Assembly: GCF_963675165.1 (NCBI RefSeq)
Contig: NC_087377.1
Coordinates: forward strand, 5,952,042-6,016,041
DNA from: Halichondria panicea
Taxonomy: Eukaryota > Porifera > Demospongiae > Suberitida > Halichondriidae
DNA: 64,000 nucleotides
Reading direction: 5' to 3'
Shown here: positions 4,376-35,589 of the stretch, piece after piece
How positions within the stretch are numbered: position 1 is the stretch's first letter
How the letters are laid out: each line of letters begins with the position of its first letter
Program-made: the position numbers and the translations under genes
The notes under the pieces: generated by a model
Told to the model about the DNA's origin: nothing
The model's database searches: none
Seen by the model: only the letters and a program-made list of their open reading frames with translations

Positions 4376-7300
4376 ATGTCCACTTCACCCGAGTATCTAG
4401 CCTTCAAAGAAGCTTACTACAAGCTCTCTCTATCTCTGAGCCACCCTGAAGTGCTGGCGGGTCTGCTATGGTCCAATGGATTTATCACACCAATGGAGAA
4501 ACATGATGCACAGGATGTATCAAAGATGGCCAGAGTTAGAGCTACAGTTCTTTTGGATGTGATAGCAAATAAGATTGAGCTTCAGGCGGAAAAATTGAAA
4601 CAGTTTGTTACCATTCTCAAACAAGACACTTCACTCAAAGACTTGGCAATGATTCTCGAACCTAGTACGTAAACGTACACCAGATCTAGTGTGTACATAT
4701 TGATTCAATGTGCCAGCAAACTGAGCAATGCTTTTTAATCAGTCTGTTTTCATTTATTTGGTTAGTTTTCTGCCCGCATAACTTGTTCATTAGCTGTACA
4801 ATGTCTGTACATTAGGTACATATATGTCGGTATGCATAATTATTGGTAGTAGTACTAATTATTATGTTTTCCCTTTTTTTCCCGTAGCTCGTGAAGAACC
4901 TCAGTTGTCCGCTTCTCAACCACGAGGTGTGTGTGATAGCGTGTCTCTATTACTCTCTATTCTCTATTACTCTCTATTGAATGTGTGTTGACGAAGGCTT
5001 TTTTTTATCACAAATTCCATTGCTGAGACATTTGTTTTGATTCGTACATTCCCACAATTGTTTTGTAGTGAGTACTAACGGCAAGTCTGAAGAACAAATG
5101 AAAGTATGGCTGAAAGAAATTGGACTAAGGGATCGAGACATCGAACTACTGATAGGTAACGAATATTTGTACTAGCTGCAGACACATTGGAAAAGTATGT
5201 CCTGAATATTTCCATGTACTACTTACGGGAGTCATTTGGACACTTACATGTACACCACTGTCGTATTTAGCATCTGCAATCTTTATTATCATGTACACGT
5301 GTGCTGTATATATAAATGATTATGTCATTTTCAGATGAGGGGTTTGGAACTGGTCCTGGATTCATGACACTAGAGAAAGAGGATATTGATGATATGAAGT
5401 TTACGAAAGGCGGAAAAAAGCTACTGTTAAACAAAATTTCTACAAATTCAGAAACGGAAACAGTTTCCATGGATACCACTCCCACATTAGTTAGACCCTT
5501 GGCAGGAGGTGTGTAATAAAGAAGTTCAACAGTTATTTATTAAGATGAGTACTGTACATAATAGCTACATGTAGGTCTAGTATGAGAGTCATGATGTGTA
5601 GGAATGTAGTTCACTCATACATACACACAGTCCCACCCTCCACACTACTACCAGAATCAAGCACTGCAGACGAAATATGTGATGAAATAGGGTTGCCCCC
5701 TTACGTACTGGACACCGAATTCCCTGACCACTACTCAGTAAATCTCTCATTCGCAAAATTAATCCCAGATTGGAAAGTGTTTGCACAAGGTCTTGGACTA
5801 TCCCCTCAGGATATACGAGGAATAGAGACAAACATTAGCCTGACTATTATGATGCAAAGTACTGAGACTATTAATATTTGGAAGAGCCGTTTTGGATTCA
5901 AGGCTCGCTACAGGATGTTGGTGGATGTGGCATTGCAACACAGACTGTTGAATTTGGCAAGACAGTTTTGTAGACTCTTACAGAGTAAGTCCAACGTACC
6001 TTATTGGCTGTATTGTTTTATGTGCAATATACACCTGTATACTGTCTACTTTTGCACGGTTTTGACACAGCACTCATGTATTCGTACATGTGCGATGTGT
6101 AGGTTGATTGTACTTTACTTAGCCCATTACTTGAGAATATATCATTTTGTATCTGACTTTTTGCTGGCTAAGATCTACTGTCCTCAACAAACCTAGTGTT
6201 ATCGACTTGTGGTTTTTAAAGTGATGCGTTTTGCAGCTACCATAAATTATAATACATTCGTCATAATTTTCCCCTATAGAAATGGTGGGCAGAGCTCCAG
6301 TAGAACCTGTTAGTTCAAGACAACCTGGTGAGACACGGAGTACATGCACATGTAATGGTTACATACATTGTAGCTCCGAGATGGCCATGAGAGCTAGTGT
6401 TTACTAGAAAACACCAACTGTTGTCGGTTAACTCTGTTGCATGAGCCATATCGCCCTCCCTGGTGGCGTACTCCTGTACATATATATAATTACATTACAG
6501 CCAAACAAAAGCATGTACAATGTAATTCTACACATGTCTCAACGATGAATTTCTCCAAATTTGGTTTAGTTTTAGTAGTGGACAGTAGATTGTCAGCTAG
6601 ATTAATCCATTTAACGTCTTAATTAAGGGCCAGCTGTTTGAAGTGTATTGATCATGATTTTCATATCAATTAAATTTGCACACCCTTGTATATAAATCTG
6701 TTTGTGATCAACAAGCATGCAACATGTACAATCTCTTACACATTATTTTGTGGATCGCACACCCGTCGCTTGTGAACCTTTTCACATGTATTACACACAG
6801 CTAAATTGGTAAGTATGGAAGTCTCACTCGATTCTCTGCTAGTTGCACTCGAACCATTACACTTCTCAAGGAGCTACAATGGACAGTTGTCTAGAGCACT
6901 ACGTGTACCTGACTCAAAACTGAGCGAGTTTGAGGCTAACAATTACAATGATATCCGTCAAGTTAGAACTGAGATCTTGAAAGAGTGGTTGAGACAAGGT
7001 GAAGACGTATCATGGCATACAGTGGCTGCTGCTGTGCTGAGAATTGGCGATCGGGCTCTGTCGAGGAAACTAATGGGTGAGTATGTTTCAGTGCAATACA
7101 ATAATTACGCAAATGCATTGTAGTTATACAACAGCACCGATTGTTATCCGAGGTGTGTAGGCGGTCATGGGTATAGTAGTCGGTTGGTTTGTCTATCTGT
7201 TTGTTTGTGATTGCTCACCTGGATACCATAGCAGTGAGGGTCAGCATGGATATAGCCTTCACACAATAAGTTATATAGTTTTAATAGTGGCAGATTTTGA

Positions 7301-11670: not shown

Positions 11671-14600
11671 GCACCTTCTTCCTTTCTTGATATATGAAGG
11701 CGACTGAAGCTGCATGGCTTTGATTTCTTGTCAGCGTCTTTCTTTGCTTTCTTTGCTGGTAGCCCAATTGTGGTTAACTCATGACCTCTCGGTCGCCCTC
11801 TCTTTTTCACAATAGGTACGACTTTGATTCCTGAGAATAAGGAGACTCGGTGAGTAAAAATTGCTTACTGTACCCTTGTGAAAATACCAAAATGCGAACT
11901 TCTTAGAAAGGTATTTGATGCCAACCCAGAAAAAAGAGTTAGTAGCACGTGTTTAGAATAATAATTGACGAAATGTATCACAATAAATTAAGATTGTACC
12001 CGGCCTATACTATACATTCCACCATAATTATTCATACATACCCAATGTTCCTTGGGTTGTGTTTACATTCTGTCCTCCAATGACTGGCGATTCACGCGGT
12101 GACTTGATGTCTGGTGCCACAGTGCCAGTCTCTTCAAGTGCAGCACCTTCCTTGCTTTTGACAGAGTGCTGCTCATCATTATCATCATCACCAGACTCTG
12201 AGCTGACTTCACTGACTTCACCTGAACATTATTTGTGAGGAGGTGGTGTGCATTGTTTAGAATATGGGAATACCTGTACATTACATGTCACTCAAGTACA
12301 AATAAAGTGGTATTGTGGGAAGAGGGAGAGCTACAAACAGCATTTTAAGTGGCACCACTTGCAATGAAATAATTATCAGACTCACTTTCATTCAGTTCTG
12401 CGAGCCCAACTTCTTCTCCATTCTTCCAATACAATATTAAATCTTTTACTAGCTTCATTCGCCTGTCAAATTGGTTTTTGGATGCATAGCTTGCAACTGA
12501 CGCCAACTCAGCAGAAAGAATTGACATTTTTCAAAATTTTGGATGTTGGCTTAGTGAGCGGCGATGCTCCTTTCCAGTTGTTAAAACCAATGTACCCTCT
12601 GAAGAATGGGCTGAGAAAATCCGATGTGTAGATCGATAGTAAGCAGTAGTCCATCTTTCGTTACAAAGAACAGCATCATAGGTAGATATACCAAGTTGAG
12701 AGTGCAGTGCGAAAATATGGCGACAAGGCAGGAGCATTGACCTACTGAATATGCACTCGCAACTAGAAATTGTGACGTTTTTTTGTCCCTCTGATGTTTT
12801 CACAATATACACGTCACCTTCCTTTGTGATTTTCGATACCTTACCAGCTAATTCTAGCTGCTTGTGAACAAAATCAGCCGCATAATTTGTCAATAGTCGG
12901 GAGTACATACTTTCAGAACTGTCATCTCGAAATAGGTTAACTTTCACTCGTTGAAAGACCAGAGCAGCCTTATGATCACATTCAGTTCTCAATGCAGTTA
13001 AAATGACGAAAAATCTATCAACAAACTCTTCCAGGGAGCTATGGCGATTTATTACTTGCTTCAACTTTCCATTGATACTCTCCAATCGATTGTTAGTAAA
13101 ATTGAGAAAGTTGCCACAGTTGGACTTCATTCCGAGAACCCATTCATCTCTAATGCTATGCCAATTTTCGTCAAAATATAACACAACTTCCCTTGGAGCA
13201 GATCTCTGGAAGTTAGCATAAAGCTCTCGATAGTGAGCTTCTGTGGTAGCGTAAGCCATTTTCTGTACCATCTCCAAGCAGAGGGACCGTTGCCCAGATG
13301 AAATCCCCATTTTTTTCACAAGTGATCTCTCTTCGTAGGCTTCTCAACGCGTGGAATAAGCATATGAGAACAGAAGCATTTGGTAGTTGCTCCTTAACAA
13401 CATCTCTCTCGCCAATATCTTTGTCTGCCATCACAACTCGTACATTCTTCCAATTTTGATTATGCTGTTTGAAAGCCTCCATCATCCAAGACATGCTCTC
13501 TCTATCTTCTGTCACCAACAAGCAGACTGCCACTATTTCACTTTGACCGTTAGAATCCTCGGTGAGCATTAAATATACAGGCAGCCCTAATTCCAGCAAT
13601 TTGTATGCGGCATCAAGGCATAGAAGCTCAGGGTATGCTTTAAAACATTCTTTCATTTGCTGATCCTGAAAAAATACGCCTTTCAGGTTTTTTTCACTGT
13701 CTGAGAATATTTCCACAGAAGCTCCTATGCCAAAGAGAGACTTGTGTAAGTACATGCAAGCTAGACATTAGATGGGTATTTTAGGGGCAGAGCTGTTATT
13801 CTGAAAGAATCAACATGCACTAATTATAAACGCATATAAATTATACTAATGAATCTTGCACGCCATTAGTATTAGTGACTTACCATAATGCGTCATCAGA
13901 GTATCAACCGTAGCATCTAGGCTGTTTCTGCTTTTCCTGAGTTTGGTAGAGGATGCAATGTTTGTCAGATCTTTTAAAAGAATAACATTCCCTGTCTCTC
14001 GTACTAGTTCTTGCTGCAACAGCTTTTTGTTTACATTCATCCCCAGAAGTTTAGTAGCCTTTTCTTTAGCTTCAGTAGGGAGGCTTCTTTGACGTGGTAG
14101 ATGTTTAAACAGCTCCTACACATTGGAACACACAAATTATGTCTTATCAGTACATGCATGGTGATAAAACTAACCTGAGATACTTCATGGGTATGTTCCG
14201 TCGAGACACTTCCCACTTCAAAAGCAGTGCATTTTCAAGGATATATGAGCCGGACAATCTTGCCTGAAGGTCCTAAAGAAAAAGTGCCAGGAGCGAGAAA
14301 TAAACAAGAAATAAACAGAGGAACACTATGCTCATGATTCATGATTCTACTAGATATAGATACGTACAGACAGATAATAAGATTTTTCGTGTTATAGTCA
14401 GTAATTATGCAACTATCAATGTCAGTCCCCACTACTCCCCCCCCTGTGGAGGACATAGTGGGGATTTGATTCAGTAAGTAACTCGAGGTGCGGGATAGGG
14501 TGGGGAATTTGACTTCCTCATTTCCTCAGTATACAAACTTACAACAGTAATATCTAGAAAATGTAACACATGCAAGTCAAATCCCGGGGTTATTAAGTAC

Positions 14601-18629: not shown

Positions 18630-21600
18630 ATGGAGGAATGGCCTAAAGCGACTGAGGCTCAGTTGAGCCTTGAGTGCTCAGATCAAGCTCTTCAGCAGTT
18701 GTCTGCCGAGATAGCTGGCTATAACAAATACAAGCACATGTTGGGCCTCAGTGATGCTGTGATTAATGAAATCGATCACAATCCAAGCACCTTCTACAGC
18801 ACTCAGGGCAAATTTCATTCTGCTCTAAAAAAGTGGAAATCAAAAAACCTCGATACAAAAACAGCGTCTTACAGTCGATTAGTAGAAATAGTTAAGACTA
18901 CCAATGATGGAGATGCTCGCAGGAAAATTCACAGAGCGTGTGTCAATGCAGGTAAGTTGATGTCATAATAAGTATTAATTATCAAATGAACAAAGGCTAT
19001 AATTTTTTCATAGCAAAGAATGTCGGCTGTCTGAAATATAATGGAGGTAAGCACATGTGTATAGATACATACCATAATATTGTACTTGTACCATGATGTG
19101 CTCTGACACTAAGTAAGGTACAAATTCCATGTACCTTTCCATGGGTGTACATTTATACCCTAGGGTACATGGCTGTGGTCTCAGCCTGAAGCCCTCCCTC
19201 CACTCTTTAAGGACCAAAGTACCGTTGCGGTAACAAAAATTGTAGAAAGCACAAAAATTAATGTGCAGGTGTTTGAAGTTGTAAATGTGGTTTTGTCAAG
19301 TGCAGCACACGCACACAATATGTACAATTGCTTCTAATCAATAGGTGTTTCATAGTACAAGCCACCTGTACCATGGATATATAATTATGTGTGTATTTTG
19401 TTTACCTCGTGCAGTTGTATGTATTCCCTCGGGTTACAAATCCAATACACCCTTGAATCCATGGTACAACTATTACATGTACATGTATGTACATACACCT
19501 GCACATGCATTCCGCATGATCCTCTATATAATAACAGAGGAGTATCAAACTCCCACGCACATTCCATTCTACATCTAGGAGTAGGACTAAAATTCACTGA
19601 ATACGTCACCCTACTGGAGTTTGCAGAATCTTTGCAACACACCAGTAAAAGCATAGAACGTTTACGCGTTCCGTACATGTATATGGGTTTTGTGTACACA
19701 TTGTAGTATCTGTTTTACTACTTAAATGTGTAAGCACTAGTAAGGAACCAGAGGAGGTACGACAGGCGCGGTGCAGCTCAAGCAATTAGCCTTTGATTGA
19801 GCAATAATTATTATCCGCCCACATCGTATGTTTTTGCTGAGAGTAATCAAAGGCTAATTACTTGAGCTGCACCGCACCTGTCGGACCTCCTCTGGTAAGG
19901 AACTATAGTGCTCAACACTTATTCATGTGTTGCGAAGATACGCAACTCCAGTAACACTTGTAGTTGTGTAAACTGTTCGCCAGAAATAAAATAAAATTTG
20001 GGCTGGAGGACAAACCACAGCATGGACCGTATCATTTTTAACTCTACACATACGCACCCACTTAAAATGTGGTTTGAGAGTGAAATAGTATGACATTACT
20101 TGTACCGTAATGTGGTTTGTACTACAACTGCCAATGAAAGCACCGCGAGTGTGCTGAGGTGTCAAAGCTACCATAAAGCTACTAGTTATTAGCATATATT
20201 TTTATATGCACATTATTACCGTATAGCGCGAAATTTTCGAGGGGCGAAATTTTCGCGGATATCATGGGTTAGCAATCCTACACGAAAATTAAGTCTACGA
20301 AAATTGTTCTTTATTAAAATTATAACATTTAAAGGTGTGGCTTCCGGTAAGCAGTCATTCTGCGAACATTGTGCAACGAAATGCTTTTAGAGGCCAATCC
20401 ACCAAATATAAGTGCCTCGAAAATTTTGCGCTATACGGTTATCATGATGAACATTTTGCATTAATTGCATCCAGGTATAATCCAGACTAAAAGTGTATAG
20501 AAACTCTTACATGTACTTGCACTTTATTGATCCTTGAACAGCTGTAGCAGTCTACACAGACAGACACACATGCAGTGGCGTAGCCAGGGGGTGGCGAAGG
20601 GGGCAAATGCCCCCCCTTTTTCTGGATCTCTACTGCTCTGCTCAGGTTAGTGTAGCTGATTATCTTGCTGAGCACTCCCTTTCTTCCGAATCTTGCTGCA
20701 GTTAGCTAGCTAGTAGGCAAGCAAAATAATTTAGTCCCTAAACTGTGAGCTATTCTGGTCTAAATCTATGGACAGTTCTTGTTCTTTGCTAAACTAGCTT
20801 CTTCTATGCAAATAAAACATCACGCCACACCCAACTAGGTAGAGAAGTAAATTATGCCGTCATAATTAAGAGGCGTGGCTTCTGATCAAAATTTTGGCAC
20901 TGCGCGGCTGGTAAATTTTGTCCCCTCTTCCAAAAAATCCTGGCTACGCTCCTGACATGTATACAAACACACTACTGTATACCTCGCTTGCTCATGCGCA
21001 CCGAGGCATAATAATGCTGTGTCCTAGCAACGAAACATACGATAGCAGGTACATTTAGTGATTTTATTTTGCTGTATGATTGTGTTTACGTGTGATACAT
21101 GTAGATTGAAGCATGCAGGGACAGTTCCTAGATTATTAATCCCTAACCAAATCATCTACTCACCAAACGTATACTGTAATCGAATGTCCTTATAGGCTTA
21201 AAATCCGATGAACCACCACCGTTAGAGCAACTGAGGAGTCATGAGCCTGCCCCAGAAATTCCCAAGCCTCCTGAGGAAGCACCTGACAATAAGGTACAGC
21301 TTGGTGCGGTTTTCTCTGTACATGACATTGTATATGTGATTCCCGTGATTTGCCAAGCCATGAGCTACATGCATGTACATGTATATTGCATAAGTGGACC
21401 CACTTCAGGGCTGAATTCAGGATTTTATGCCAGGGAGGCAAATGAACAATGTAGGAGGGGGAGAAGCCACCCGCGGCATAATATGTTTCATTGCATACTA
21501 AACTAGGGGGATCCGGGGGCATGCTCCCCCGGAAAAAAGAGGGCTGATGCATCCCTGCACTTCTACGACGTGGGGCGGTGTATTACAAGTACATGTAGGC

Positions 21601-24600
21601 TGCACACTTCACAACTAGAGCACTAAAGTGCAAACCCTCGGCTGGTGACATGATAATAAAGAAACCAGAAGAGTGATGATGCGGTGCATGTAGCATACAT
21701 GCTAGTCATACATGTATGACTAGCACAGCAACTCAAGAGCAATAAAACTAAACCAGACCAGCTGGAGGCATGCTGAAACATTGAGTGGTACATGTCACAT
21801 GAGACATATACTGTGGACTGGGATCACAGCAAAGAAGCCTGGAGTCTTAGACTTAGAGAGGTATGGCTCCTACCAGGCTGGAGTATATAGGATCCAGAGT
21901 CAGCCAACAACCAGTCACAATTTTAGCTTTCTACTATCAATTGTTCCAGGTACGGATCACTTCAGCTGCAACTACGTAATCAAGGCCATGTGTAGCTAGC
22001 TACATTGTAGCTGCCAACATGCAAGTTCAAGCTTCTTAGCTTTTGCTCAACAAAGAAGCTTCAACATCAAAATCTGCCACTATTTAAACCAAGATATTGT
22101 TCTGTGAAGGCTATACATGCTGTAAACGCAGCACTGTGGTACCCAGGTGAGTAGATATACCTGTGACAAACAAACAAACAAACAGACCAACGGGCTACTA
22201 TACCCGTGGCCGCCCACGCGCGCCTCGGGTAATAATTATACATCTACATGTATGCCCCATGCATGCATGTTTTCTTATACGTTAACGATATAGATATCAG
22301 GGCTATGTTATACATGTAATAGAATGTTTTGCGAGCATCAAACATATGCGAAATTTGTGAGGGTTGATCGATAACCACACGATCCTTGCCAGAACGCAAT
22401 ACAAAAATAATGTTTAGATAGCAAAAAAGGTCAAATTTTCTGCTGATTAGACTCATTCGCAAAGGTTTTTCACCAGCAAAATATTCTAGATAATAGTTAT
22501 AGGCTGAGTCCAAGGTCTTTATGGGGTTTTGAGAACCGAAGTTTGCTGATTTTCGTGCTTCTCTAGATGCTGAAATGAAGCGACTTCAATCTGCTGGTGT
22601 TGGCTCTGTACGTAAGCAGGCTGAACCACTTTGCCTTGAAGAAGAAGAGGGTTGCTGTGGGAGAAAAAACTGTTAGGAGACCACAGCCCGGACGCTCTTT
22701 TGAACACAATAGTTGTTCATGAATGGACTGTATTTTGCATTGCACAGTGGAGGTGAGCACAGACAACTTCACCATAATCCTTGCCATGCAGATTGAATTT
22801 GTGAGCCTCGAAATGAACAATCATTCCTCAGATACAGGGAAGACGTATCGAAGAATCCTCCCAGAGGATTGAAAGGACGCAAGTTCAAACCCAAAGTAGT
22901 GGTTCACTATTCAAATCCCGAAAATCCTCAGAGATGCTTTGTTGAGCTGTTTAAGAGATACAATAGCTTGTGTCCTCATGATCGCCCGAGCAATGCGTTC
23001 TACCTCTCTCCTCTGACAAAACCTAAACAAGATTGCTGGTTTTCCCGAGCACCTTTGGGACACAACACCTTGAAGAACATGGTGAAGAACATGTGTAAAA
23101 AAGCAGGAATACAAGGTTTCAAAACGAACCATTCGCTCAGAGCCACAACTGCAACCAGGTTGTACTCAAGTGGTGTTGATAAACAACTCGTAATGGAGCG
23201 TATAGGCCATCGCAGTATCGAAGGGATCAGAAGCTACAAGCGAACCTCCTTAGAGCAGCATGAAAACATTTCAGACATCCTACACAGTAAAAAGTCCCTG
23301 TAGCCAGAAACCAATTCACAGAGTCTTATCTGCCATCTCTGCCTCCTCCAATGGCTGCCACCACATTTCCGTGCTCACAAGTGTCGACAAACAACGTAAG
23401 CGCACCTCGCACCTCATTCTCAAGTGATGATCATGCAGGAGTATTCTACATAAGTTCATGCTCAAACATATCTAATCATTCCAACTAACTGTGAACTCTG
23501 AACGTCATTATAATTATCGACATTTACATAATTAGTCAATTCAGTATGATTGTATGTATCATGTAAAAAATGTTAAATGCATGTAGTAAACATATAATGG
23601 ACCTCCATAGAAGACCTCTGAATGTCTGAGAGGTCGAAAGGACCTCCAAGTAACCAATCAGATTGCACCATTTGTGACAAGCATTTTCTAATAACACGGT
23701 ATATCTGTACATGCATGTGCTTGTACATGTAGGTGCCTGAGATTCAGCAATTTTGCTACATTCACGAATCAACCCGACGTCACTTGGTATGGGATGTGAA
23801 GCAAATTTCTGAGCTGAAAGTGCATTTTCTGAACCCTGACATTCTAGAGAAGGAGCACTGGAAGTGTGGGCATGCGGGTCCCCTGACAGTTGACACTATC
23901 CTGGCTTGGGCCACTGTCTGGAATAGCCATGCTGAAAAGTACCCACATATTGCTGATGAGCTAGCAACCGCTGACACAGCTCAAATAAGAGTGTTTTTTA
24001 CCAGCAACAGTAAGTAATTATTTTCAGCGGGGCGATAATTATAAACCCTCCCCAATAGCATCGCCCTGATACAATGTACATCTATCATGCAAGATAAAGA
24101 TTATATATACCGTATTTACTTGATTAAACACCCATCTCGTTTAAACGCCCATGGTGATCAAGCTGTCTTTGTCAATAAACGCCCCTCTTAAATAATCGCC
24201 CATGTATGGGGCGTGGCACTGTGTGTGGAGCTGAATTAGCTTGTGGAACCAGCTAAAACAATGGCAGCATAGAATAAATAGAGGGAGTTATGATGGCAGA
24301 GAGGACACAGAGGGAGTAACGCCACTCCTACGACTTAAGATTGAAGCTGAGAGCTGTAGCAGCAGTCAAAAAGAGCATAATAACTGCTGATGAGCAAGAG
24401 TTTGAAGTATACAAACAATAAATGCCCGTTTTGAATAAGCGCCCATCTCGTTTAAACGCCCCCTCTACAGATGTTGCTAGGACGTTTAATCAAGTAAATA
24501 CATTACATGTACAGTGGAACCTCTTACCCTTAAGGTGACATTCTCAGGTATTTTTTTTGCAGTATATAGCACGGGAAGTCCTTTTATAGTGCTGAAGTCA

Positions 24601-27600
24601 CATGCCATAATTAATCGGATTTATTTACTGATTCACTCCGTATCTTAGGTGATTTCCAGTGAATATGAGCCATATTTTACTTCCCCCAGGGAAGTATGGA
24701 ATATGGCTCATATTTTTACTTCCTACAAGCACTATTCAACTTTTAAATCATCTTGACAATTTGTACACAGTAAAATAGCAATATAGCACGCACAAAGTTT
24801 TTGTAGACTAGATGTATGTTGTGCTATTGTCGTATTGACCTGAGCTAGCTAGCAGTCTAAGCTCATGAGGCTTGAAACACTGCAGTTCAATCCTTGCTCT
24901 GTGTTTCTAGTCAAGGCTGTGGCGCAGAGGTACTGTACTAGGTAGAGGAGTTCGAGTACAGTGCATGCAGTGTTGGTAGACTTGTGCAATGCAAATTCAA
25001 AACAGCAGCTGCTGATATTGGTGGGCGGGTCTGGTCAAAGTTTATGGCTTCCAGTAGAACCTAGCTGCTTGGAGAAGTAGCTAGCTCTCATACTTGACAG
25101 CTGTAGCTGTTCTAACTGCATATTCTGAGGCACAACTGTGAGAGCAAGCTTGACTGTCTCCATTGATGTTCAAATGACTGTTTTGCTGTTTTTTTCAGTA
25201 AATAAATCAGTTGTTGACTGGTTGCCTAGTAATTATGGTTTATAAACAACCTCAGCCTCGGGCTACGCCCTCGGCATTGGTTGGTTATAAGCCATAATTA
25301 CTAGTCAACCAGTCAATAACTATAACATACCACACCTACGTGTATTAGGAGGGTATGCACCCAGTGTATCCATGCTATACTGTGGTTACATATCCCATCA
25401 GCTGCGTCCCAGAGTAACCACACTAGCAGAGGATGTAATAATTATGGGTGCATATAATTATTATCCGTAAGTAGTTGTGGTGTGGTACCGGTGACATAAT
25501 TATTTTCGCGGGTAGCTGCTATTTCTGCGACTGAGAGTAAAATCGATTCGCAAAAATGTGTACTTGCGGATAATTGGAAAATGTAATTAAAACCACTGGC
25601 GAGTAATTAGAAACGTTATGATAATTTCACAACTTGAAGGATTTGGCAGAATACCAGCAAAATATGATAAACAGTGAAATCGCAAACAAATCTACGTGTA
25701 CCTGAAAATATGTCACCTTCTTCAGGTACATGTACCTATAGTACATAAAGCTAACAACTAGCTTGTACATACATGTAGTACGCACATTTTAAATTTATGG
25801 TGAAGCAATTGTTTGTGCCCGGCTGTGTGTATAGCAATTAAGGCTTTGACTTTCTACATGTATGCCTACAGGAAAAGTGATGTCCTGGTCGAAGGTTGGA
25901 ACCGCAGCAACTTGGGAAACTGATAAAAATATGGCGACAATGGTCTTCAACTTGTATGGCATGACAAAAGCTGTCCAAAGAAGCATAGTGATTCATGAAT
26001 TTGGCCATGCCTTGGGACTGGATCACGAGCATCAACGATCCGACTTCTGGGATGTCTTGCAGCCATTCACTATCGGAACAAATCAAATGAAGAACGGAGA
26101 CAGTGGGCGTTGCATATCAGCTTCTGAGGCTGTTTTCAATCTCAGGGAAACGATTGGAAGTGATCGAACTGAATATGACAGCAAGAGCATCATGCATTAC
26201 TGGTAAGTGACTATTCTGTATGCATGTTAGAACACCTCCAAATGGTGCATGCCTGGTCTAAATTTATGTTACCATCTGGCCCACTGCTAAAAAGCTAAAA
26301 GCTCGGCCTATTTTAAGTAATTTACCTACTGGCTGTAATAATACGAAATACAAAAATAAAGATGTATACCGTAGAAACTGGATTATTGGCGCATGCGCTT
26401 TTGGGGTCAATAGCAGAGCTCTATACGCTTACATGTATATTCGAGAATACGCCTATAATGCAGTCATTTCGAGCCCCACCCAGCAACCGGATGTCTCTGT
26501 GATGAGAGCTGACTTGCAAGCTGGCTTGAAAGTGAGCAAGCAAGACAAGCAGGCAACCCTAACTGGATCTGTATCATACTATTATATTGCAGTTCATTTT
26601 GCAAATCATAGCCAGCTAGTAAGTATAACATATTGACCATGAACTTGGAATAAAAGGACCTCATGTACGTCTCACATTCTCTCAGCCATGATCAGACAAG
26701 GTAACAGCATGCCCAGACAGTCCTTCCAGATGGATATTACCAGCTATAATTATAGCTATCGTGCACTGTACAAGCTAACTAGCTCATAGATAAACAAAAT
26801 TAGCTGAATTAATTCTAAAATTTCACTAATAGCCTTCGTATAATTGGAAAAGCGCTTCAATTCAAATAAAAAGCCTACAGTTGACCATGCACTTAAAATA
26901 AAGATACGCTTATAGTCGAGTAAGCGCTAATAATCCAGTTTCTACGGTATCCTATTTCCTCCGTACAGAGATGCTCACGGTGTAATAGTCATTCATGGTG
27001 ATATAATTTATATCACTGATATTTCCCCATTGCGACCAGACATGTACATTTTGTAGATAATTTTCTGCCCTCTTGCACGCTAGGCTGCCATAAAGCTTTA
27101 CAAAATGAAAGCACCGCAGGTACTGATGCCTCGGTGGAGATGCCACGGTGGAGATGCCAAAGCTACATAACAAATAGCTGATGAACATTTTTGCAATAAT
27201 TATTTTGCTGCATGCAAACTCAAAGAGTGGGTAATGATCGACCATGATTGTCGTTAAAAACGATCGATGCCAAAAGTTAAAGTCTAAAATTAATGGCTGC
27301 CATCAGCAGAGCCTTGCAGCTCTCTTCCTCACTCTTGCAGCTACCAATAGCTAGCGTTCTAGTGCAGAGCTAACTACTAAGTAGAGTAGTAACACTCGGT
27401 AAACAAGTTTGGCTACGTGCTCTTCTGAAAAGGCTGCAATGGCATTCCAAGTAAGCAAAACTAGGCATAACTCGAGAATGAAGCATTATTTTGCAAATCC
27501 ACGAATTAAAATTCAAGTAAACATGACTAGAAGCCTATAGAAACTCTTGATTCATCCTTGAGCAGCTGTAGCAGTCTACACAGACACACACACAGACACA

Positions 27601-30600
27601 CAAACACACTACCGTATACCTCGCTTGCGCATGCGCACCGAGGCATAAAAACCATTTGCAATGTGAAAAATTTCTTGGATTGACCAGGGAACAGTGTCAA
27701 TTACATTTTGTAAAATTTACTTTAGTTTTATTATGAGCCTTCGTTCTTGATTTATGCCTAGTTTTGTTTGCCATTGCAGCCTTTTTAGAAGAGTGCTTAT
27801 AGCAAAACTTGTCTATGGAGTGTTGCTACTCTACTTAGTAGATACATGACATAATTATACAGTGTACTACGCTAGGTGTTGGTAGCTGCAAGACAGGAAT
27901 GAGAATGAGCCTTTATCAGTAGGTTTTACATAGGATTGGCAGTGGGTTTGCCCGTGTTTAGCAATATTTCAATTATTTTGACTCATGTTCAAACTGTTCG
28001 GAAAGGCCACATCAAGGAACTGGCTAGACAGATAGTTTATTTAGCCTTTTCTTTCTTTGTATCTCTCATTTCATAATCCATGAACATTTTAATGAATGAA
28101 TATTGTCATTTTAAAAATTGTACTATTTTGACGTTTCACCGCTCTTTGTCTGACTGACTAAGTAAGTAAGTAAGTGAGTAAGTAAGTTTCTTGCCCAGCA
28201 TTTGCTCCAAGTACAGCCATCTCCAGGACATTCTGCACAGGGTTTCCAAACGACTACAACCTGGATTACAAAGCGCTACTTCAGATTTGCGATTGCTTCC
28301 ACGAGGCAGATGACCTCTCAGTCTCTATTTCTCTTACCTAGACAATTCCGCCATCTTTAATGACTCAGCAATTATTGCGTTGTGGCCAAATAATAGATAG
28401 GCGTGGCTAAGAAACCGTGCGCCCACTGCTGTGCTTTTCCAGAGCCTGAGGTGTTGCTTTACTTCACACTGTTCAGCTCTAGCTCCCTTTCTCTGACAGG
28501 CATGCTATATGCACTGGCTAGATATCATGCTCTTAAAATGGCTGTCATTTAACACAAATTCAACATATCAAGCAATTAATAGTATGATATTATCCTATGG
28601 ATACTGAAGATTATCACGAGTCTGTGCCAGTAACTGCACGAGTGCCTGCAAGGCACGAGTGACAGTTACTAGGCACGGACGAGTGATAATCATCAGTATC
28701 CATAGGATAATGCATTTATTGCTTGGCAACCAAAATGCAAGTTGAATCTGCGCATGCGCAACATGCGGTTGCTTTATCAACCAGAAGAATGCGTAGCAAC
28801 AAAATTGATTTCTCCCAGTTGAAGACGAGTTTAAGAGAAAGAAAACAGCTAGAAAGACAAAGAAATAAGACTCTAGAACACCAAGAGAGCTTGCAGAAGG
28901 CTACTTAAAGATTTTGTAGAGAACAGACAAGAAAAAAGACAAGAAAAACGTTGACAACCAGCAACCCGTTTTGAAAATGGATAGTTCTGAAGGATAAACA
29001 GCATGTGCTTGCTTTCTATCATGCTCCAGTGTATCAGAAGAGGAAACATGCACCGCTATAACTGAAGAAAAGTGTGACAACCGTTTTTGAAGCCAAAACG
29101 ACTTTATACAAGCCTGAACAGGCTTATATGGTGGTCCAGTACACTTCTACATGTGCAATACTCCGCTCAAAGCACCCACTTCCAACACTGATGCCTGTTT
29201 GATGCGTTAAATATGAACACTGACAACCTCCTGACCCTCAGCTTCACTGCAAAAATAGCACAGAAGTGATACAGAGCATCAGAAAACAAGAAAAGAGACT
29301 GATAAACATTGCAATGCATGATTATAAGTGTGTAAACTATGTTTTTTCTTGTTCTCTCACTGCTGAAAACGTTTTATTCCAAATAAGAATCACTTCCTAG
29401 TGTGCAATAACAAGTGTGCAATAATACTTCCGGGTGTGCAATATGGAAAAATATCTGCACAGTCGGTGATGAGTCGCTTCCTGTGCAATTTGAATGTAAA
29501 ACGCTGATGTCAGCACTTATTAAAAAGCAATAATACTCATTATTAGTCCAGAGATATTCGAGAAGATATCTGATTAGTTCTGTCTTTTCTTCTTGAACTT
29601 CTGTACTGCCTCTTGACGTTCCACTTATGCATGTCATGATACGTAAATTTATACTTCTGCACTGAAAAACAAAGGGAATCCGACTAGAAAAAGATTTTCA
29701 ATGTGAAAAATTGCTAGGATTGGCCAGGGGAACCACAAAAAAGCGTGGAAACAAGAAATCAGACGAGAGCATAACTCCAATCCGTTACAACGTCATGAAC
29801 ATGTACAATACATAGTATAGACTGTGTTCCAGATCCATCTACCAGCTTCCATCCACCACATCATTCCATGCAGGTCACCAGTACAGTAATTCTACAGTAA
29901 ATCATCATGATTATAATTATGCCTGCACAATGGATGTATAATAAATATATATAAGGATTGGTCTGATTATAGATGTATAATAAATATATATAAGGATTGG
30001 TCATGTACATGTAACTCATAATTTTTTTGATGAAAATAGCAAGGCACCTGTCAGGCGAGCTGTTTTCAGCAGCTATTGAAGTACATGTATGATCGGCATG
30101 CAAACAATATTAATAATTAATTTTGGCTCAAAGTGATTTTGAAATTATTGTAGGTTTGACATGAACTGGTTGCTACCCGCCTACCGTTCTCTTGCCAACA
30201 TTAAAACAAATACACAACTGACTGTTGCTCAGAAGAAAGTACTTGAGGGTGTACATGCTCATGACTGCCGCAAAGGAGCACAATTGTCAAAAAATCCTTC
30301 GATACTGGATTATACGACTCTAAACAAGTCCTATGCAGCTATGTCTCAAGGTGAGCTGCATGTACACTGTAGCATAATTACATGCATGAAGTATTGTTCT
30401 GATCATCTTATAGTCTGAGAATTTCACCAATATTGTTTTGATTTACCACATAATTATGCCTCGAGGCGTAGCCGCACGAGGGATACGGTAAAGCTGACTG
30501 TGTGTGTGTGTGTCTGTGTGTCTGTTCCAGCTGTAACTGCTCAACGGTTGCAATGCGACAAAAGCTAACAGCTTCTATAGGCTTCTAGGCACGTTCTCTT

Positions 30601-33600
30601 GGATTTTGATTCGTGGATTTGCAAACTAAAGCTTCTTTCTCGAGTTATGGCTAGTTTGACTCACATTGAAGGCTGTTGCAGTCTCTTCAGAATCTTTCAT
30701 AGCATCATCTGTTCGCACAAACTTTCTATTCAACATAATGAGTTAGCCTTGCACTAAAGCGCTAGCTTTTTGTTAGCTACAATACTCAGAAAATATCTGT
30801 TAAAACAGCTAGCTAGCAATACAGTAGCCATTTGTGAAATTGATCTCTTTGGACCACACCCTTTAATTATTCCTGTGGATGTAATGCGCATGCGCGCTCA
30901 TTCCCCATGTGTGAGAAATAACATCCAAGATCCAGATCCAGATCCTCCTGGCAGAATCATCTTTGTCTTGAGTGCCTGGTAAGCCACAAAACACTACCAT
31001 ATAACAATATAGATAACAATAATTTTTTTTATGCATTTACACAGGTCTTTTCTTCTTAGATATTATATACACTGAACTACAGATCCTGGAAGAATCAATT
31101 TTCTTCTTTCTTGAGGTCCTAGTAGACCACATAATACAACAATAGATGCATGTAAATAAGTCTTTTCTTCTCAGTGACTTTATATAGATAATAAGCTAAC
31201 TTTAATATAAAATTCATTATAGAAACTAATATAACACTCTAATACTTTTCAGCGAAAGCAAAAACATGGCGAGAGGCATTAGCACAGCGCCAGCTTGAAC
31301 ACTAGTATATACATGTATCTATGTACTTATAATTACATGTTTTAGACTTTAATTAACGTTATTACTACTTTTTTCCGTATACTTGAATCTGTGGCTTATG
31401 CCCTCCATTGCGTTGTCGAGAAGGCTTGCACATGCACTAGTCAGAAGCCAGATCTCAACTGCCTCTACGATGGTCGTATGGTCGGGTTATCTTCCAGTTG
31501 GAAGTACAAAGACTTGCCATAGCCTATACAGGAACCAAGCTCAGACATTCCGACCATTCGACCATTTGTACATGTAGAGGTAGATGAGTACAAAGACTTG
31601 CCATAGCCTATACAGGAACCAAGCTCAGACATTCCGACCATACGACCATTTGTACATGTAGAGGTAGATGAGAGCCTCTTCTGGCTTCTGAGTAGTGTGC
31701 CAGCTTTCTCGCAATGGAGGGCAGCCAGCCACAGCTAGCTAAACTACATATATAGTACAATGTAGATAGTACATTGATAGTACATAGGCGTGGACGGCCA
31801 CGCCTATGGTTACTATCACCCATGCAATAGATACCAGGCCGTATTTTATCAGCCTGGGGCTGAGGCTAGAACATGCAGGAGCCCAGTGGAGTTAGTGGGC
31901 GACATGTCTTCTTAAGTTTTTCAGTAATTTTTATAATCCTTTTTTCCTCAGATCTTCAAAGGACCAGTGACACAAAACTATTAATTAGCTTTCTTTTACT
32001 TCTCGAAGACAACTTACGTATTAAGGGCGTATAAAAAGAAGAGGGCATGCAACTCGCTATGTACTGTATGTACTCAGCATACTTCATATCAGAGGCCAGA
32101 TATAGTTTACAATTATGTGAACAAGTGGGTGGTGTTATGTACGGAGTGGGCGTGTACATAGAGCTGCCTAGCCTAGTTCAGAGGAGGTACGACAACATTA
32201 CGTGTGGGACAATGGACTGTAAATTAACATGCAGCAAAGATGTGGTGGTGGGCGTGGCCTTTATCATTCAGACCACACCTACAATACTATTTACTGCTGT
32301 TGATAGAAATTTCATTGTCCGCGCACGTGATGTTGTCGTACCTCGTCCTCTGAGCCTAGTTTACAATGTAGTACAGAAAAGCATCATGACCAGTAGTCCA
32401 GCCAGACCCCAAGACAACCCCTTTAAGTGTGAAGTTAGTCACTGGACGTATTGTTAAAAAGTACCAGTTCAACTCCTGGTAGATCTATTAATGCAGTGGA
32501 CAGGACTTTCGTATCTTCTTGGTGCTGCTGAATGCACTGCCTTTAATACTGCTAGTACGAGCCATACTGCTGGTTTTATCAACGCTGAATGCTGCAATAA
32601 TTGAGCTAAAGTCTATTTGGAAGTTGTGTGGTCAATTATGGCTTCATTTATGCTTTACGGTTGACAAGTATGCCAGTAACTTCTGCATGGAAAGTGACTG
32701 GTTAAGCTCGATCAGCATAATTATAGTGATAGAAGCGCTTTTTAACAAGAAATCCAATACTATGAAACTTTGAATTTCAGTGCAGTATGACAAAGTTATA
32801 ACACGAACGTCAACAACACTTTCCCCAAAATCCATTCATTGCTATGTCCAATCGGGCACCTTCAGAAGTGTTAGCTGTAGTAGCAGATAAGGTCTCCTTA
32901 TTAATTTTTGTGATGGGATGTAGATCAGGCTCCACCCTCACGTCATGGCATACCTCAGTCAGAACTGAAGCTGTTAAGTCCCTTGTTTCGTTATGCCTAA
33001 TAATAGGGAAAGCCCCTCTTGGGTAAGGGATAGCATGCTCAACCGAGAACCGGGAACAAGTTGTGAGTAAGCCTGCAGGCATCTGGAATGTGATGATACT
33101 AATGTACATGTATCTCTAAACGCACTCTTGTGGAGGTTGAACCCATACTCTTGTAATGATATTAGCATTGAGCCAAGAGCAACTATCTTGTGTTTCCTTT
33201 CGGATGTCCCATTTGTTCTGAAGCTATTGTGATATGGTCTCTATGGGGTAGTTTTGTGATGATGGGGATGGTATCACTTTCTGTAGAGGTTCAGTTACTT
33301 TCCGGGAATCGTCGAAGTAGTGGTTACAGGTTGATGAGTTCAGCATACTAATTCCACCGAGCTCTGCAGGGAGGTCTAAGATTCCTCTCTGTGTTGTTTA
33401 GAGGTGGTTTGCCGGTGAGAGCTAGATGACAGCAAGTTTCTTCTAATGATTTCCTCAATCTCTCCCAAGAGATGGCAGATGTTCAGTACGGTCCTTGTCA
33501 GGAAAGACCATCTACTGCTCCAGCCATGTGTGTATGCTGCGTGTGGTTGTGTGCCGGCCCATTGGCACAGTTTGAGGAGCTCCGCTTTCCAGGTTTCAAG

Positions 33601-35589
33601 TTTCGTATGTACAAAATTCTCTACATCTGTAGGTGTCACCAATGCCGATAGGTCTCATACCTGGGCATTTTTCTAGGGCAATGAGACGACATGCTAAGAG
33701 CCTTGGTGGTTAGAGTCTTTCCAATCATACGCTTCAAGGCCCAAAGGCTTTCAGGGCTTAGTAGAACCCTCACTATACGTTCGGTCTCCCGGCCTTTGGG
33801 CTTCTTAAATCACATAGAAACTTCCTAAACAATGTACAAAATGAGGGGCTATTTGAAAGAAATTATGGAATTAAAACAACCGTGAGAGCCTCAAGTCCAA
33901 ACACACGTACAGGAAGTTTGTTTACATTTACATGTATAATTATGTACGTGTACATGTAGTTGTGTATCGAATGATCATATTCTGTGGTCGTTTTCTTAAT
34001 TCCCATGGAACTTTATCTCCCACCTGCAGCAGTCGCTGGTGAACATGTTCAGCTTCCACCTGTGCTTTCACTGTCTGCTCGGCCTGCTGAACTTGAAGCT
34101 GTTTCATTCGACGGTATATAGAGTGTCATAGAGTATTTGTTAACATGTACGTATAATTATACCGTATAGAGGGTATATTTCGAGGGTATAAATGTTCGTG
34201 GTTTTCGCGGATTAGGCATGAACCGCAAATTTAATATTTCATGCATGCATGCTGCAAAAAAGGCGCTATTCCACGAAAATTAAATCTGTGAAAACCTTTC
34301 TAAAGGCACATCCGCGAAAATTTATACCCTCGAAATATACCCGCTATACGGTAGTTACCACACAAGAATGAGTGCAGTTGAACCTCCCTTACCACCTCCG
34401 AAGAGCAATCTTCGGCTATAAAACGGCCAATTTATGTTCAAATTAGTTATAGTTATTAACTGGGTTGCCTAGTAATGTTGGCTTATTACCAACCAATGCC
34501 GATGGCATAACAGCTGATATTTATAAATACCTATCTATACTAGGAGAATGTACAACATTGTGGAGCGAGCGTGCGCGAATTGTGCATATATCTGGGTTGT
34601 AGATCCAATTAACTCAAAAGAAGTTGGTAAAGGATTATGAGTCTCAAAACCAATTATCGTGCCGGTCCATGACATACATACATACATACAAACAAACATG
34701 CGGACAGAATTGCAACAGTGAAGACTAGGTAGGGACTCGCTTTGCTCACCCCTATAATTAATCACTGTGGTTATATATGTCGTACATACGTTATAGTACA
34801 GTAGAACCTCGATTATCCGGCTTAAAAGTTTATTTTTAATCAATTCGGAAAATGGGCGTGTCCCTGAAATGTGCATGCGCATTGCAGCTGTTACTATGGA
34901 GACAGGTCTGCTTATGTTCGGCGCATGCGCAGAACCATGTGGCACTCCTGTTTATCAATAAAGTTGGTGGATCAAGGCGTGGTTTATCTATTCGATTATC
35001 CGGTTATCCGGCCTGCCTCTGGAACCAAGGTGTATGGAATATGGGCCGTCTGTAAGGGACACGTACTGCATTAAATACCTATCTATATTAATGACTGTGC
35101 TTATGCCCCCCCCCCCATTGACTAAACGTACAATTTATTACATGTTTTATTATGTGGCTCGATCAAAAGTGATCCAAAGTGTCCTTTATCTTGTTCTACT
35201 GTATTAATTTGGCGCTAACATATTATTATTACTGTAACCCTGCATGTATACACTATAATACCGTAACTTACATGTAATTATGTTCGATACCTGACTTTCC
35301 TTCTAATGCAGTACTGACTATGGATCACTTCACTACTATTTTCGAGATACTTAAGAAAACAAATAAGGAATGGTACAACATAGGTCTCGGACTTAATGTG
35401 GAGATGGATGAGCTTGAGAAGTTTGAAGATAATTTTCCAAATGATAACGTTAAGTGTCTGAGAAAGATGTTGACTCGTCGCATACAACAAGGTGGTCTGA
35501 CTCGCTCCCTACTGTGTGAAAGCCTAAGGCGACCTTTAGTGAAGAGAAGTGATGTAGCTGATGAAGTTCAGACTGCAAAGCTCTTGTAG
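18630..35589 (+). CDS. Gene D: death domain - astacin-like metallopeptidase - death domain
   Basis: Exons 18630-18951, 19014-19046, 21196-21293, 23733-24009, 25872-26202, 30154-30350, 34030-34113 and 35312-35589 sum to 1620 nt, a continuous 539-residue frame. Splice phases agree at all seven joins (1,1,0,1,2,1,1). Residues 1-107 are a death domain (ALKKWKSKNLDTKTASYSRL). Residues 108-151 are a proline/glutamate-rich linker. Residues about 160-419 are an astacin-type peptidase: a strand with LKVHFLNPDIL, AQIRVFF, SWSKVGTAA, then zinc motif HEFGHALGLDHEHQR (H285, E286, H289, H295) and Met-turn SIMHY (M351, Y353). Residues 448-539 are a second death domain (WYNIGLGLNVEMDELE). No signal peptide or propeptide is seen, so an intracellular protease is inferred, unlike secreted astacins. 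ATTAAA at 35767-35772 may be its poly(A) signal. The least certain join is exon 6 to exon 7 (3.7 kb intron); the last two exons could belong to a separate gene. Confidence 0.72.
19749..19894. mobile_element. 146-bp palindromic CAGAGG MITE, 9-bp duplication
   Basis: Nearly the whole element folds back on itself, with ends CAGAGGAGGTACGACAGG and CCTGTCGGACCTCCTCTG. GTAAGGAAC flanks it at 19740-19748 and 19895-19903. It lies in intron 2 of gene D. Confidence 0.9.
20218..20439. mobile_element. ACCGTATAGCGCGAAATTTT palindromic MITE
   Basis: The ends accgtatagcgcgaaatttt and aaaattttgcgctatacggt are inverted repeats. Relatives lie at 34160-34353, 35829-35880 (cut by the gap), about 37195-37243, about 38864-39021, and one arm near 16230-16280. 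Confidence 0.8.
20573..20954. mobile_element. hAT-like non-autonomous element
   Basis: Termini CAGTGGCGTAGCCAGG and GGCTACGCTCCTG are of the CAGNG hAT type. No frame is inside. Flanking 8-bp duplications are not clear. Confidence 0.6.
21406..21557. mobile_element. Short CAGGG...CCCTG element
   Basis: The ends are CAGGGCTGAATTCAGG and GATGCATCCCTG, and CACTT flanks both sides (21401-21405 and 21558-21562). A minus reading frame across it is a chance product. Confidence 0.5.
21600..22235 (-). repeat. R2 repeat copy in intron 3 of gene D
   Basis: The right part (about 22010-22235) is the inverse of 7140-7370. The left end carries the inverted gccgagggttagcacttcag terminus at about 21605-21645, also seen at 17590 and 63545. 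No coding frame is credible. Confidence 0.5.
22830..23303 (+). pseudogene. Crypton-like tyrosine recombinase, C-terminal fragment
   Basis: A 144-residue open frame (22869-23303) ends in a tyrosine-recombinase catalytic region: HSLRATTATRLY (H-x2-R), then MERIGHRSIEGIRSYKRTS, supplying the later His and the nucleophile Tyr. This arrangement is that of metazoan Crypton/DUF3504 proteins. The N-terminal half and the first catalytic Arg are missing, and a stop lies just upstream, so this is a fragment. It lies in the same orientation inside intron 3 of gene D. An unannotated host use of the exon cannot be excluded. Confidence 0.75.
24108..24500. mobile_element. MITE with ACCGTATTTACTTGATTAAA ends
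   Basis: The left end accgtatttacttgattaaa and right end tttaatcaagtaaata are inverse. Both subterminal regions repeat 'gcccatctcgtttaaacgcc'. It lies in intron 4 of gene D. Confidence 0.75.
25203..25322. repeat. 120-bp palindrome in intron 4 of gene D
   Basis: 'gttgactggttgcctagtaa' near the left is inverted as 'ttactagtcaaccagtc' on the right, around a central gc-rich loop. A half copy lies near 34442-34515. Confidence 0.7.
26367..26949. mobile_element. MITE with TACCGTAGAAACTGGATTAT ends
   Basis: The left end taccgtagaaactggattat and the right end ataatccagtttctacggta are perfect inverse repeats, 583 bp apart end to end. No transposase frame is inside. It lies in intron 5 of gene D. Confidence 0.85.
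27108..27648 (-). mobile_element. Most complete R1 copy (about 540 bp)
   Basis: It runs from gaaagcaccgcaggtactga to gcatgcgcaccgaggcata. It contains all blocks shared by other copies: a CA/TG-rich part, 'gaagcattattttgcaaatc', 'actactaagtagagtag' and 'gggtaatgatcgaccatgat'. It serves as the reference for the interrupted copies. A further partial plus copy lies at about 27735-27900. Confidence 0.8.
28590..28710. repeat. Perfect-armed palindrome, intron 5 of gene D
   Basis: 'tatcctatggatactga' and 'tcagtatccataggata' bound the unit, with 'cgagtctgtgcc' mirrored by 'ggcacggacg'. The lysine/arginine-rich open frame just downstream (28723-28908) has no recognised domain and is not called a gene. 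Confidence 0.7.
29931..30002. repeat. Tandem duplication of an AT-rich unit
   Basis: 'atgtataataaatatatata' followed by 'aggattggtc' occurs twice, separated by 'tgattatag'. It is adjacent to exon 6 of gene D. Confidence 0.8.
30455..30760 (+). repeat. Divergent R1 copy
   Basis: It starts with tgcctcgaggcgtagccgca and has the R1 order of a GT-rich run, 'cttctataggcttctag', 'cgtggatttgcaaa' and 'ctcgagttatggctag'. It lies in intron 6 of gene D. Confidence 0.6.
31398..31725. repeat. Palindromic element with internal 84-bp tandem duplication
   Basis: The outer arms (ccctccattgcg ... cttgcacatgcactagtcag and the inverse near 31676-31725) form a fold-back. Inside, 31504-31587 and 31588-31671 are almost identical direct copies. 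It lies in intron 6 of gene D. Confidence 0.75.
32179..32352. mobile_element. 174-bp CAGAGG MITE, 9-bp duplication
   Basis: Ends are CAGAGGAGGTACGACA and TGTCGTACCTCGTCCTCTG. AGCCTAGTT lies at 32170-32178 and 32353-32361. It sits in intron 6 of gene D. An open frame running through it is fortuitous. Confidence 0.88.
32778..33720 (-). pseudogene. Reverse-transcriptase retroelement relic
   Basis: Minus frames contain, in order, a CPGMR / PIGIGDT-type start (around 33610-33680), TWKAELLKLCQWAGTQPHA and LLGEIEEIIRRNLLS, and further on PRGAFPIIRHNETRDLTASV, LTEVCHDV and EGARLDIAMNGFWG. These resemble conserved strings of RT-bearing retroelements common in sponges and cnidarians, recognised by pattern only. 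The frames are broken by stops and shifts, so it is dead. It is antisense in intron 6 of gene D. Confidence 0.6.
34160..34353. mobile_element. ACCGTATAG palindromic MITE
   Basis: The left arm (accgtatagagggtatattt, cgagggtataaat) is inverted in the right arm (aatttataccctcgaaatat, acccgctatacggt). It lies between exons 7 and 8 of gene D. Confidence 0.8.
34797..35062. repeat. Tigger-like end in the last intron of gene D
   Basis: 'tacagtagaacctcgattat' followed by ccgg is a typical pogo/Tigger-type terminus. 'gattatccggttatccggcc' near 34994-35013 is an internal or broken partner. No clean right end is seen. Confidence 0.45.

Follow-up and report, generated by a model that had tools for sequence, protein, structure and literature searches.

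A candidate death domain-metzincin-death domain protein encoded in a tandem gene family of the sponge Halichondria panicea

Death domains are docking modules through which enzymes of cell death and immunity are switched on. Caspases and the paracaspase MALT1 are proteases recruited by death folds, and death-fold assemblies activate cysteine proteases and kinases. A locus of the sponge Halichondria panicea raises the question of whether a protease of another catalytic class, a zinc metalloprotease, has been brought under the same kind of control. The whole stretch of DNA analysed here (the window) is 64,000 nucleotides long and corresponds to C1:5952042-6016041 of a genome of 131 Mb over 39 contigs; unless a contig is named, positions are those of the window. 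An earlier note made from the letters alone had described in it an astacin-like protease with a death-domain-like region on either side and had proposed an intracellular, assembly-activated enzyme. In this work we examined the gene model, the class of the protease, its pro-segment, the two flanking domains, and the related loci of the same genome. We propose that the gene encodes a latent intracellular metalloprotease whose copies would be gathered when death domains assemble and would become active by cleaving one another, a full account to which we give a probability of roughly 0.55.

Gene model in the window

Seven plus-strand exons within 18630-35589 join in frame through GT-AG borders to give a protein of 511 amino acids (aa) with a terminal stop and no inner stop. 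Exon 1 (18630-18951) begins with a Met start, encodes the N-terminal death domain (DD1), and ends in the phase-1 donor CAG/GTAAGT. Exon 2 (19014-19046), a short linker, and exon 3 (21196-21293), a proline/glutamate-rich linker, are provisional, being placed on GT-AG borders and phase alone, and neither had a separate match in the paralogous loci searched, whereas exons 1, 4, 5, 6, and the last exon were recovered in paralogs. Exon 4 (23733-24009) encodes the pro-segment and the N-terminal portion of the protease domain, exon 5 (25872-26202) the catalytic core, and exon 6 (30154-30350) the C-terminal portion, ending in the phase-1 donor AAG/GTGAGC; the last exon (35312-35589) carries the C-terminal death domain (DD2) and the stop codon. 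Because the frame of exon 4 contains no Met and a stop lies upstream, this exon must be joined to something upstream of it. Four residues into the last exon stands a Met that could serve as a separate start. The MEEWP start of the window gene resembles MKEWP in two near-identical copies on contig C12 and, on C17, MEKWP; of the ten DD1-type starts that we inspected, six are without this Met and have the look of internal exons. The earlier note had counted eight exons and 539 residues: the in-frame GT-AG joining stands, while the eighth exon and that length are not established, since six 84-base stretches in 30351-35310 fit frame and borders as well as the extra 84-base exon requires and none of them is supported.

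The zinc-binding motif HEFGHALGLDHEHQR (25994-26038) and the Met-turn SIMHY (26186-26200), already noticed as mid-protein features, lie in one open exon (exon 5); the catalytic Glu is E286 in the 511-aa numbering. A DNA pattern for the zinc motif performed no better than chance in the window. The codon of a pro-segment cysteine, C159, is found at 23754-23756 in exon 4. The modelled protein has no hydrophobic start, and its largest 19-residue Kyte-Doolittle mean is 0.9, which would fit the lack of a signal peptide given in the earlier note. Introns of the gene reach 5 kb, and the one between exons 3 and 4 contains a tyrosine-recombinase-like frame (22797-23303, plus strand; DUF3504, Phage_integrase), which we take to be probably a Crypton-type element. 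Elsewhere in the window, a 270-aa frame on the minus strand (12534-13343) matches the ZSWIM1/3 helical domain at 28.0 bits against a cut-off of 27.3 bits.

The protease and its pro-segment cysteine

The window protease carries the zinc motif HExxHxxGxxHE and the Met-turn SxMHY, and it matches Pfam Astacin (PF01400) at 33.1-35.5 bits (cut-off 22.5); all ten protease sequences of our alignment A1 match this model at E <= 0.1, and the piece from exons 4 and 5 of the window gene barely passes Matrixin (24.1 versus 24.0) and Reprolysin_3 (22.6 versus 22.4) as well. The caspase active-site motif is QACxG, and a caspase was ruled out since no QAC.G occurs in the 511 aa. When the A1 profile was run against PDB, the bacterial protease myroilysin scored 72.7 bits and the best animal astacin 29.8. 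With the same profile 18 of 19 bacterial open reading frames (ORFs) scored 47.0-70.7 bits (the other, L042, 23.9) and four astacins from the sponge's own genome 17.1-25.6, a comparison biased in favour of the bacteria because their loci were chosen by A1-derived patterns; the PDB comparison is without such bias. In bacterial genomes 14 related loci were confirmed, 11 of them from Pseudomonas. Three Pseudomonas loci (L031, L035, and L037) hold two protease-motif ORFs each, in which a Cys follows the likely start Met by a few residues and no obvious signal peptide was seen by eye. The disulfide cysteines of astacins are present in the sponge's own astacins L001, L002, and L004 (L003 gave no sequence) and, compared by eye, missing as a set from the A1 family, in which no Cys column is held by more than five of the ten sequences. 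The FXGD pro-motif was also sought, and no F.GD occurs anywhere in the 511 aa. All ten A1 members match the bacterial NCBIfam models AbsR1 and LegP far below their cut-offs (window copy, 38.6 versus 650 bits and 29.9 versus 300 bits, respectively).

Judged from the PDB and profile scores, the missing disulfide cysteines, and the lack of FXGD, the protease is best placed among the metzincins in the bacterial, myroilysin-like branch and apart from the animal astacins, though it falls within Pfam's broad family. The earlier label "astacin (M12A)" is thus right as far as the Pfam match goes and has to be amended for kinship, the protease being far nearer to myroilysin; a secreted animal astacin as nearest kin is rejected on the same three grounds. 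Myroilysin itself is treated as a bacterial xenologue of animal astacins in the relevant passages of papers including PMC9848320 and PMC9629494. The zinc ligands, the catalytic Glu, and the Met and Tyr of the Met-turn region are invariant across the ten A1 sequences; one further list of zinc motifs was built with the motif in its own pattern and is uninformative on conservation. Between the window copy and nine of the twelve copies of a cluster on C1 (L010, L018, and L019 excluded; C3_1437 inestimable), dN/dS of exon 5 is 0.14-0.34 with dS 0.77-1.41, so that exon 5 evolves under purifying selection, with dS near saturation.

The pro-segment cysteine near the start of exon 4 has a counterpart in a matching place in 20 of 22 sponge copies and could not be placed in C8b and C8c. 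It shares one alignment column with an N-terminal Cys in each of the 11 bacterial sequences that were aligned from a set of 16 ORFs, 15 of which have a Cys in that region. That alignment used 13 of the 22 sponge pro-segments and left out five bacterial ORFs (the second of L031, L034, L038, L039, and L043) in which the pattern did not locate where the catalytic domain starts; a Cys stands within the last 60 residues before the cut in four of them and is absent there in L034. In the nine-row alignment A4 the Cys column is one of 29 invariant columns. In both alignments this column is favoured by the trimming of sponge pro-segments shortly ahead of the Cys. The aligned portion of myroilysin stops short of the pro-segment Cys. 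Myroilysin is kept latent by a cysteine switch according to the pertinent sections of PMC9848320 and PMC9629494, the latter describing how a pro-segment cysteine blocks its zinc; by this likeness a cysteine switch is suggested for the sponge protease family, and we regard it as a fair prediction. The window copy has 12 residues between the Cys and the first Trp of the protease, where 17 other sponge copies have 25-41 and two bacterial sequences 42; its pro-segment is about 20 residues shorter than in relatives. With so short a spacing the switch may be lost or altered in this copy, whose latency may differ from that of the family.

Death domains, gene family, and NACHT-LRR receptors

Both flanking regions resemble death domains, as had been supposed, with scores that fall just below the Pfam Death (PF00531) cut-off of 22.6 bits: DD1 (residues 1-107) matches with E = 1.9e-4 (21.9 bits) and DD2, encoded by the last exon, with 1.5e-3 (19.1 bits), or 7.2e-4 (20.1 bits) when trimmed. 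Relatives score well above it, including the DD1 paralogs at C1:5420984 (29.9 bits) and C1:5393964 (29.1 bits). In alignments of eight DD1-type (A2) and eight DD2-type members (A3), 7/8 and 6/8 match Pfam Death at E <= 0.1, the best with 4.4e-7 and 1.1e-11, respectively. Against PDB the A3 profile, built in part from two C3 domains that share just 24% identity with the window DD2, found the death domains of FADD, RIPK1, and PIDD (best FADD, E = 5.8e-7), and the A2 profile weakly found RIPK1 and FADD (best E = 0.022). AlphaFold models of DD1 and DD2 alone, made in single-sequence mode, have mean pLDDT of 46.7 and 48.1, i.e., very low confidence. Of 18 death-domain exons of the N-terminal type, 15 have a phase-1 donor with a score of at least 4 shortly after the domain, a Met stands 9-10 residues ahead of the domain in nine of ten exons of the divergent N-terminal type, and in DD2 exons shown whole the frame stops within about 10 residues of the domain. 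The genome holds at least 148 Pfam Death matches (best 150 of 503 candidates scored), at least 100 DD1-type matches, and at least 150 DD2-type matches, all lower bounds because the best candidates alone were scored and some stretches of the genome lay outside the scan.

The window contains further death domains, all on the plus strand. The two exons at 55867-56163 and 56485-56754 are of the divergent N-terminal type and seem to form a protease-free gene with a pair of death domains. At 51391-51687 there is also a copy of DD2, which shares about 86% identity with the window gene's last exon. A 215-aa frame at 5549-6193 matches Pfam Death at 27.0 bits, above the cut-off, and a weak second domain-like stretch follows at 6881-7027.

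Protease-family exons gave at least 127 matches in the genome at E <= 1 (123 candidates), with ordinary astacins among the weaker ones. Twelve protease copies, all on the plus strand, are clustered at C1:5.317-5.470 Mb, about 0.5 Mb from the window, so that with the window gene 13 copies could be compared; the cluster was sampled as 120 kb in twelve pieces, which were scanned with the protease, DD1, and DD2 profiles. A same-strand death domain lies within 5 kb upstream of exon 4 in 10 of the 13, within 5 kb downstream of exon 6 in 11, and on both sides in eight, so that in five copies a death domain was detected within this distance on one side alone; in these counts no other protease intervenes, and the domains are matches at E <= 1e-5, the weaker ones at 5399207 and 5408375 being omitted. 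Some death-domain exons of the cluster sit between two proteases, can be assigned to either, and were counted for both; the flanks of six copies (L009, L013, L014, L019, L020, and the window gene) were counted for no neighbour, although L014 and L019 are near-identical and their independence is limited. The window gene belongs to a tandem gene family. On contig C3 a death domain lies 0.2-0.7 kb behind the protease in three of four minus-strand copies fetched, and two of these domains match Pfam Death at 44.2 and 40.0 bits, far above the cut-off. A C3 frame uniting the protease end with the death domain was set aside as proof of fusion since a sister copy suggests intron read-through, and the 0.2 kb spacing alone was kept. 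In the stretches fetched, no death domain was found ahead of the C3 proteases or around the copies on C8 and C12.

Several loci depart from the common arrangement. At C1:5410138-5421208 (L016/L017) two protease modules stand 1.35 kb apart with death domains flanking the pair and none found between them, possibly a double-protease gene. Three family protease modules within 6 kb at C8:4827649-4833693 (L024), with no detected death domains, are perhaps unfused relatives. L018 (C1:5446940-5447333) is a near-copy of L013 with exon 5 split across two frames and is probably a broken copy.

Death domains of these types are also found next to NACHT domains, of which the genome has at least 102 matches (102 of 265 candidates scored). 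None of those 102 falls inside the window, where a weak one could have been missed among the candidates beyond them. At C14:5398770 a domain 61% identical to DD1 lies 1.5 kb ahead of an 858-aa frame with NACHT (2.2e-24) and LRRs. With the window's own exons excluded (99 of 100 DD1-type and 149 of 150 DD2-type matches used), a NACHT start lies within 3 kb downstream on the same strand in four of the 99 DD1-type matches (each 61% identical) and nine of the 149 DD2-type (31-40%), and in none of either set does one lie within 3 kb upstream or on the other strand. Another DD1 copy has an ankyrin-repeat frame about 2 kb further on (L025), and at C1:2487501-2497000 (L044) three tandem DD1 exons precede a frame whose end resembles, by eye, that of a protein kinase. 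Sensors and further proteins thus have the DD1 module in common, which homotypic signalling would call for, and NACHT-LRR receptors (NLRs) are candidate partners of the window protein, though domains of either type seldom precede a detected NACHT.

Proposed mechanism, alternatives, and known systems

We consider it quite probable that the locus encodes a real fusion, cytosolic and probably active as a protease. Spliced into one mRNA, the exons would give a single cytosolic protein composed of DD1, a short linker, a pro-segment with the conserved Cys, the myroilysin-like metzincin, and DD2. The pro-segment Cys would cap the catalytic zinc and keep the enzyme latent. DD1, DD2, or both may enter assemblies that other death-domain proteins nucleate, the best candidates being NACHT-LRR receptors with DD1-like domains; crowded neighbours would then cut each other's linkers, with removal of DD1 and the pro-segment, and the freed protease would cleave proteins of the cell or of an invader. 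The intracellular metalloprotease of the earlier note is borne out in its domain order, its lack of a hydrophobic start, and its recruitment logic, and its activation by proximity is a prediction. More tentatively, and with rather less than even odds, NLRs with DD1- or DD2-type domains may seed filaments by which death-domain metzincins are recruited and activated (a "metalloprotease inflammasome"), a bacterial-type protease family having been taken into animal immune signalling and multiplied in tandem.

An unlikely alternative, and one that bears directly on the gene model, is that DD1, the protease, and DD2 are two or three genes (all three separate, or the protease with one death domain), the single protein being an artefact. 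Introns of up to 5 kb would permit this, none of the paralogous loci searched gave a match of its own to the linker exons 2 and 3, and death-domain exons abound in the genome (at least 148 Pfam Death matches, 150 of 503 candidates scored); some in the cluster lie between two proteases, the C3 copies have one behind alone, and the Met four residues into the last exon could start it. Yet the DD1 frame stays open up to a strong donor, exon 4 is devoid of Met, a strong donor also closes exon 6, and the last exon, with an acceptor ahead of it, bears the stop, all phases being compatible; moreover, the same order recurs on one strand over about 5-7 kb in L009/L010, L013, L014, L019, and L020, of which L014 and L019 are near-identical.

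Less probable again is a real fusion in which the protease is not the output, being inactive or a decoy, or in which the protein is a scaffold cross-linking DD1-type and DD2-type assemblies. Two death domains of different types could indeed bridge two assemblies, and the shortened pro-segment of the window copy suggests changed regulation, but the invariance of the zinc ligands, catalytic Glu, Met-turn Met, and Tyr in the ten A1 sequences and the purifying selection on exon 5 (dN/dS 0.14-0.34) speak against this reading. It is very improbable that the gene encodes a common animal astacin, secreted or membrane-bound, with signal peptide and prodomain exons that escaped the model and death domains that lie next to it by chance: the Pfam Astacin match in 10/10 sequences at E <= 0.1 (window, 35.5 bits, above the cut-off) is set against a PDB score more than 40 bits nearer to bacterial myroilysin, against 47.0-70.7 bits for 18 of 19 bacterial ORFs versus 17.1-25.6 for the sponge's own astacins (a choice of loci that favours the bacterial side), and against the lack of FXGD, of a hydrophobic N-terminus, and of the disulfide cysteines as a set.

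If the fused, latent, assembly-activated protease that we favour is real, animals do not depend on the caspase fold for proteolysis activated by assembly and can achieve it with zinc, and animal death-fold signalling has gained control over a protease of bacterial type that has a latency cysteine of its own. The proposal is readily testable: a small protein is involved, the predictions name its active-site and switch residues, and the same genome encodes candidate NLR partners with death domains 61% identical to DD1.

Among solved structures the closest relative by profile is myroilysin (bacterial M12A; PDB 5gwd, 5czw, 5zjk), which is alike in zinc motif and Met-turn, is described as secreted in the portion of PMC4377995 that concerns it, and has no death domains, whereas the window protein has them and a much shorter segment after its candidate Cys. 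Animal astacins (BMP1/tolloid, meprins, and crayfish astacin) share the zinc motif with its following Glu, SxMHY, and PF01400; the account of them in the relevant part of PMC9848320 is of extracellular enzymes with an FXGD aspartate switch and disulfides, and neither FXGD nor the disulfide cysteines were found in the window protease. Sponge death-domain NLRs (NLRD) use death domains as N-terminal adaptors, according to the pertinent text of PMC12909245, and some NLRs of the present genome carry DD1- or DD2-like domains, but NLRD are NACHT and LRR sensors without a protease, and the window gene is a protease without NACHT. In the open literature searched (protein databases lay outside its scope) we recognised no description of a death domain-metzincin fusion. 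Kaur and others, in the section of PMC8195603 on Amphimedon, describe proteins with one to three N-terminal death-like domains and varied C-terminal effectors including caspase; in that section no metalloprotease or zincin is among the C-terminal domains named for these death-like/TRADD-N expansions. TRADD-N was looked for in the window gene by Pfam scans alone. Death-fold modules on varied effectors are, on the strength of that section, a known plan in sponges (PMC8195603).

The closest parallel in logic is with caspases and MALT1, which likewise combine a protease with death-fold domains and to which the window protein is alike in its predicted activation by assembly and proximity. The window protein differs from them in being a zinc metzincin, not a Cys-His dyad enzyme, in having death domains on both sides, and in lacking QACxG. 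A protease recruited by death folds is of a known kind; the catalytic class proposed here would be new to it.
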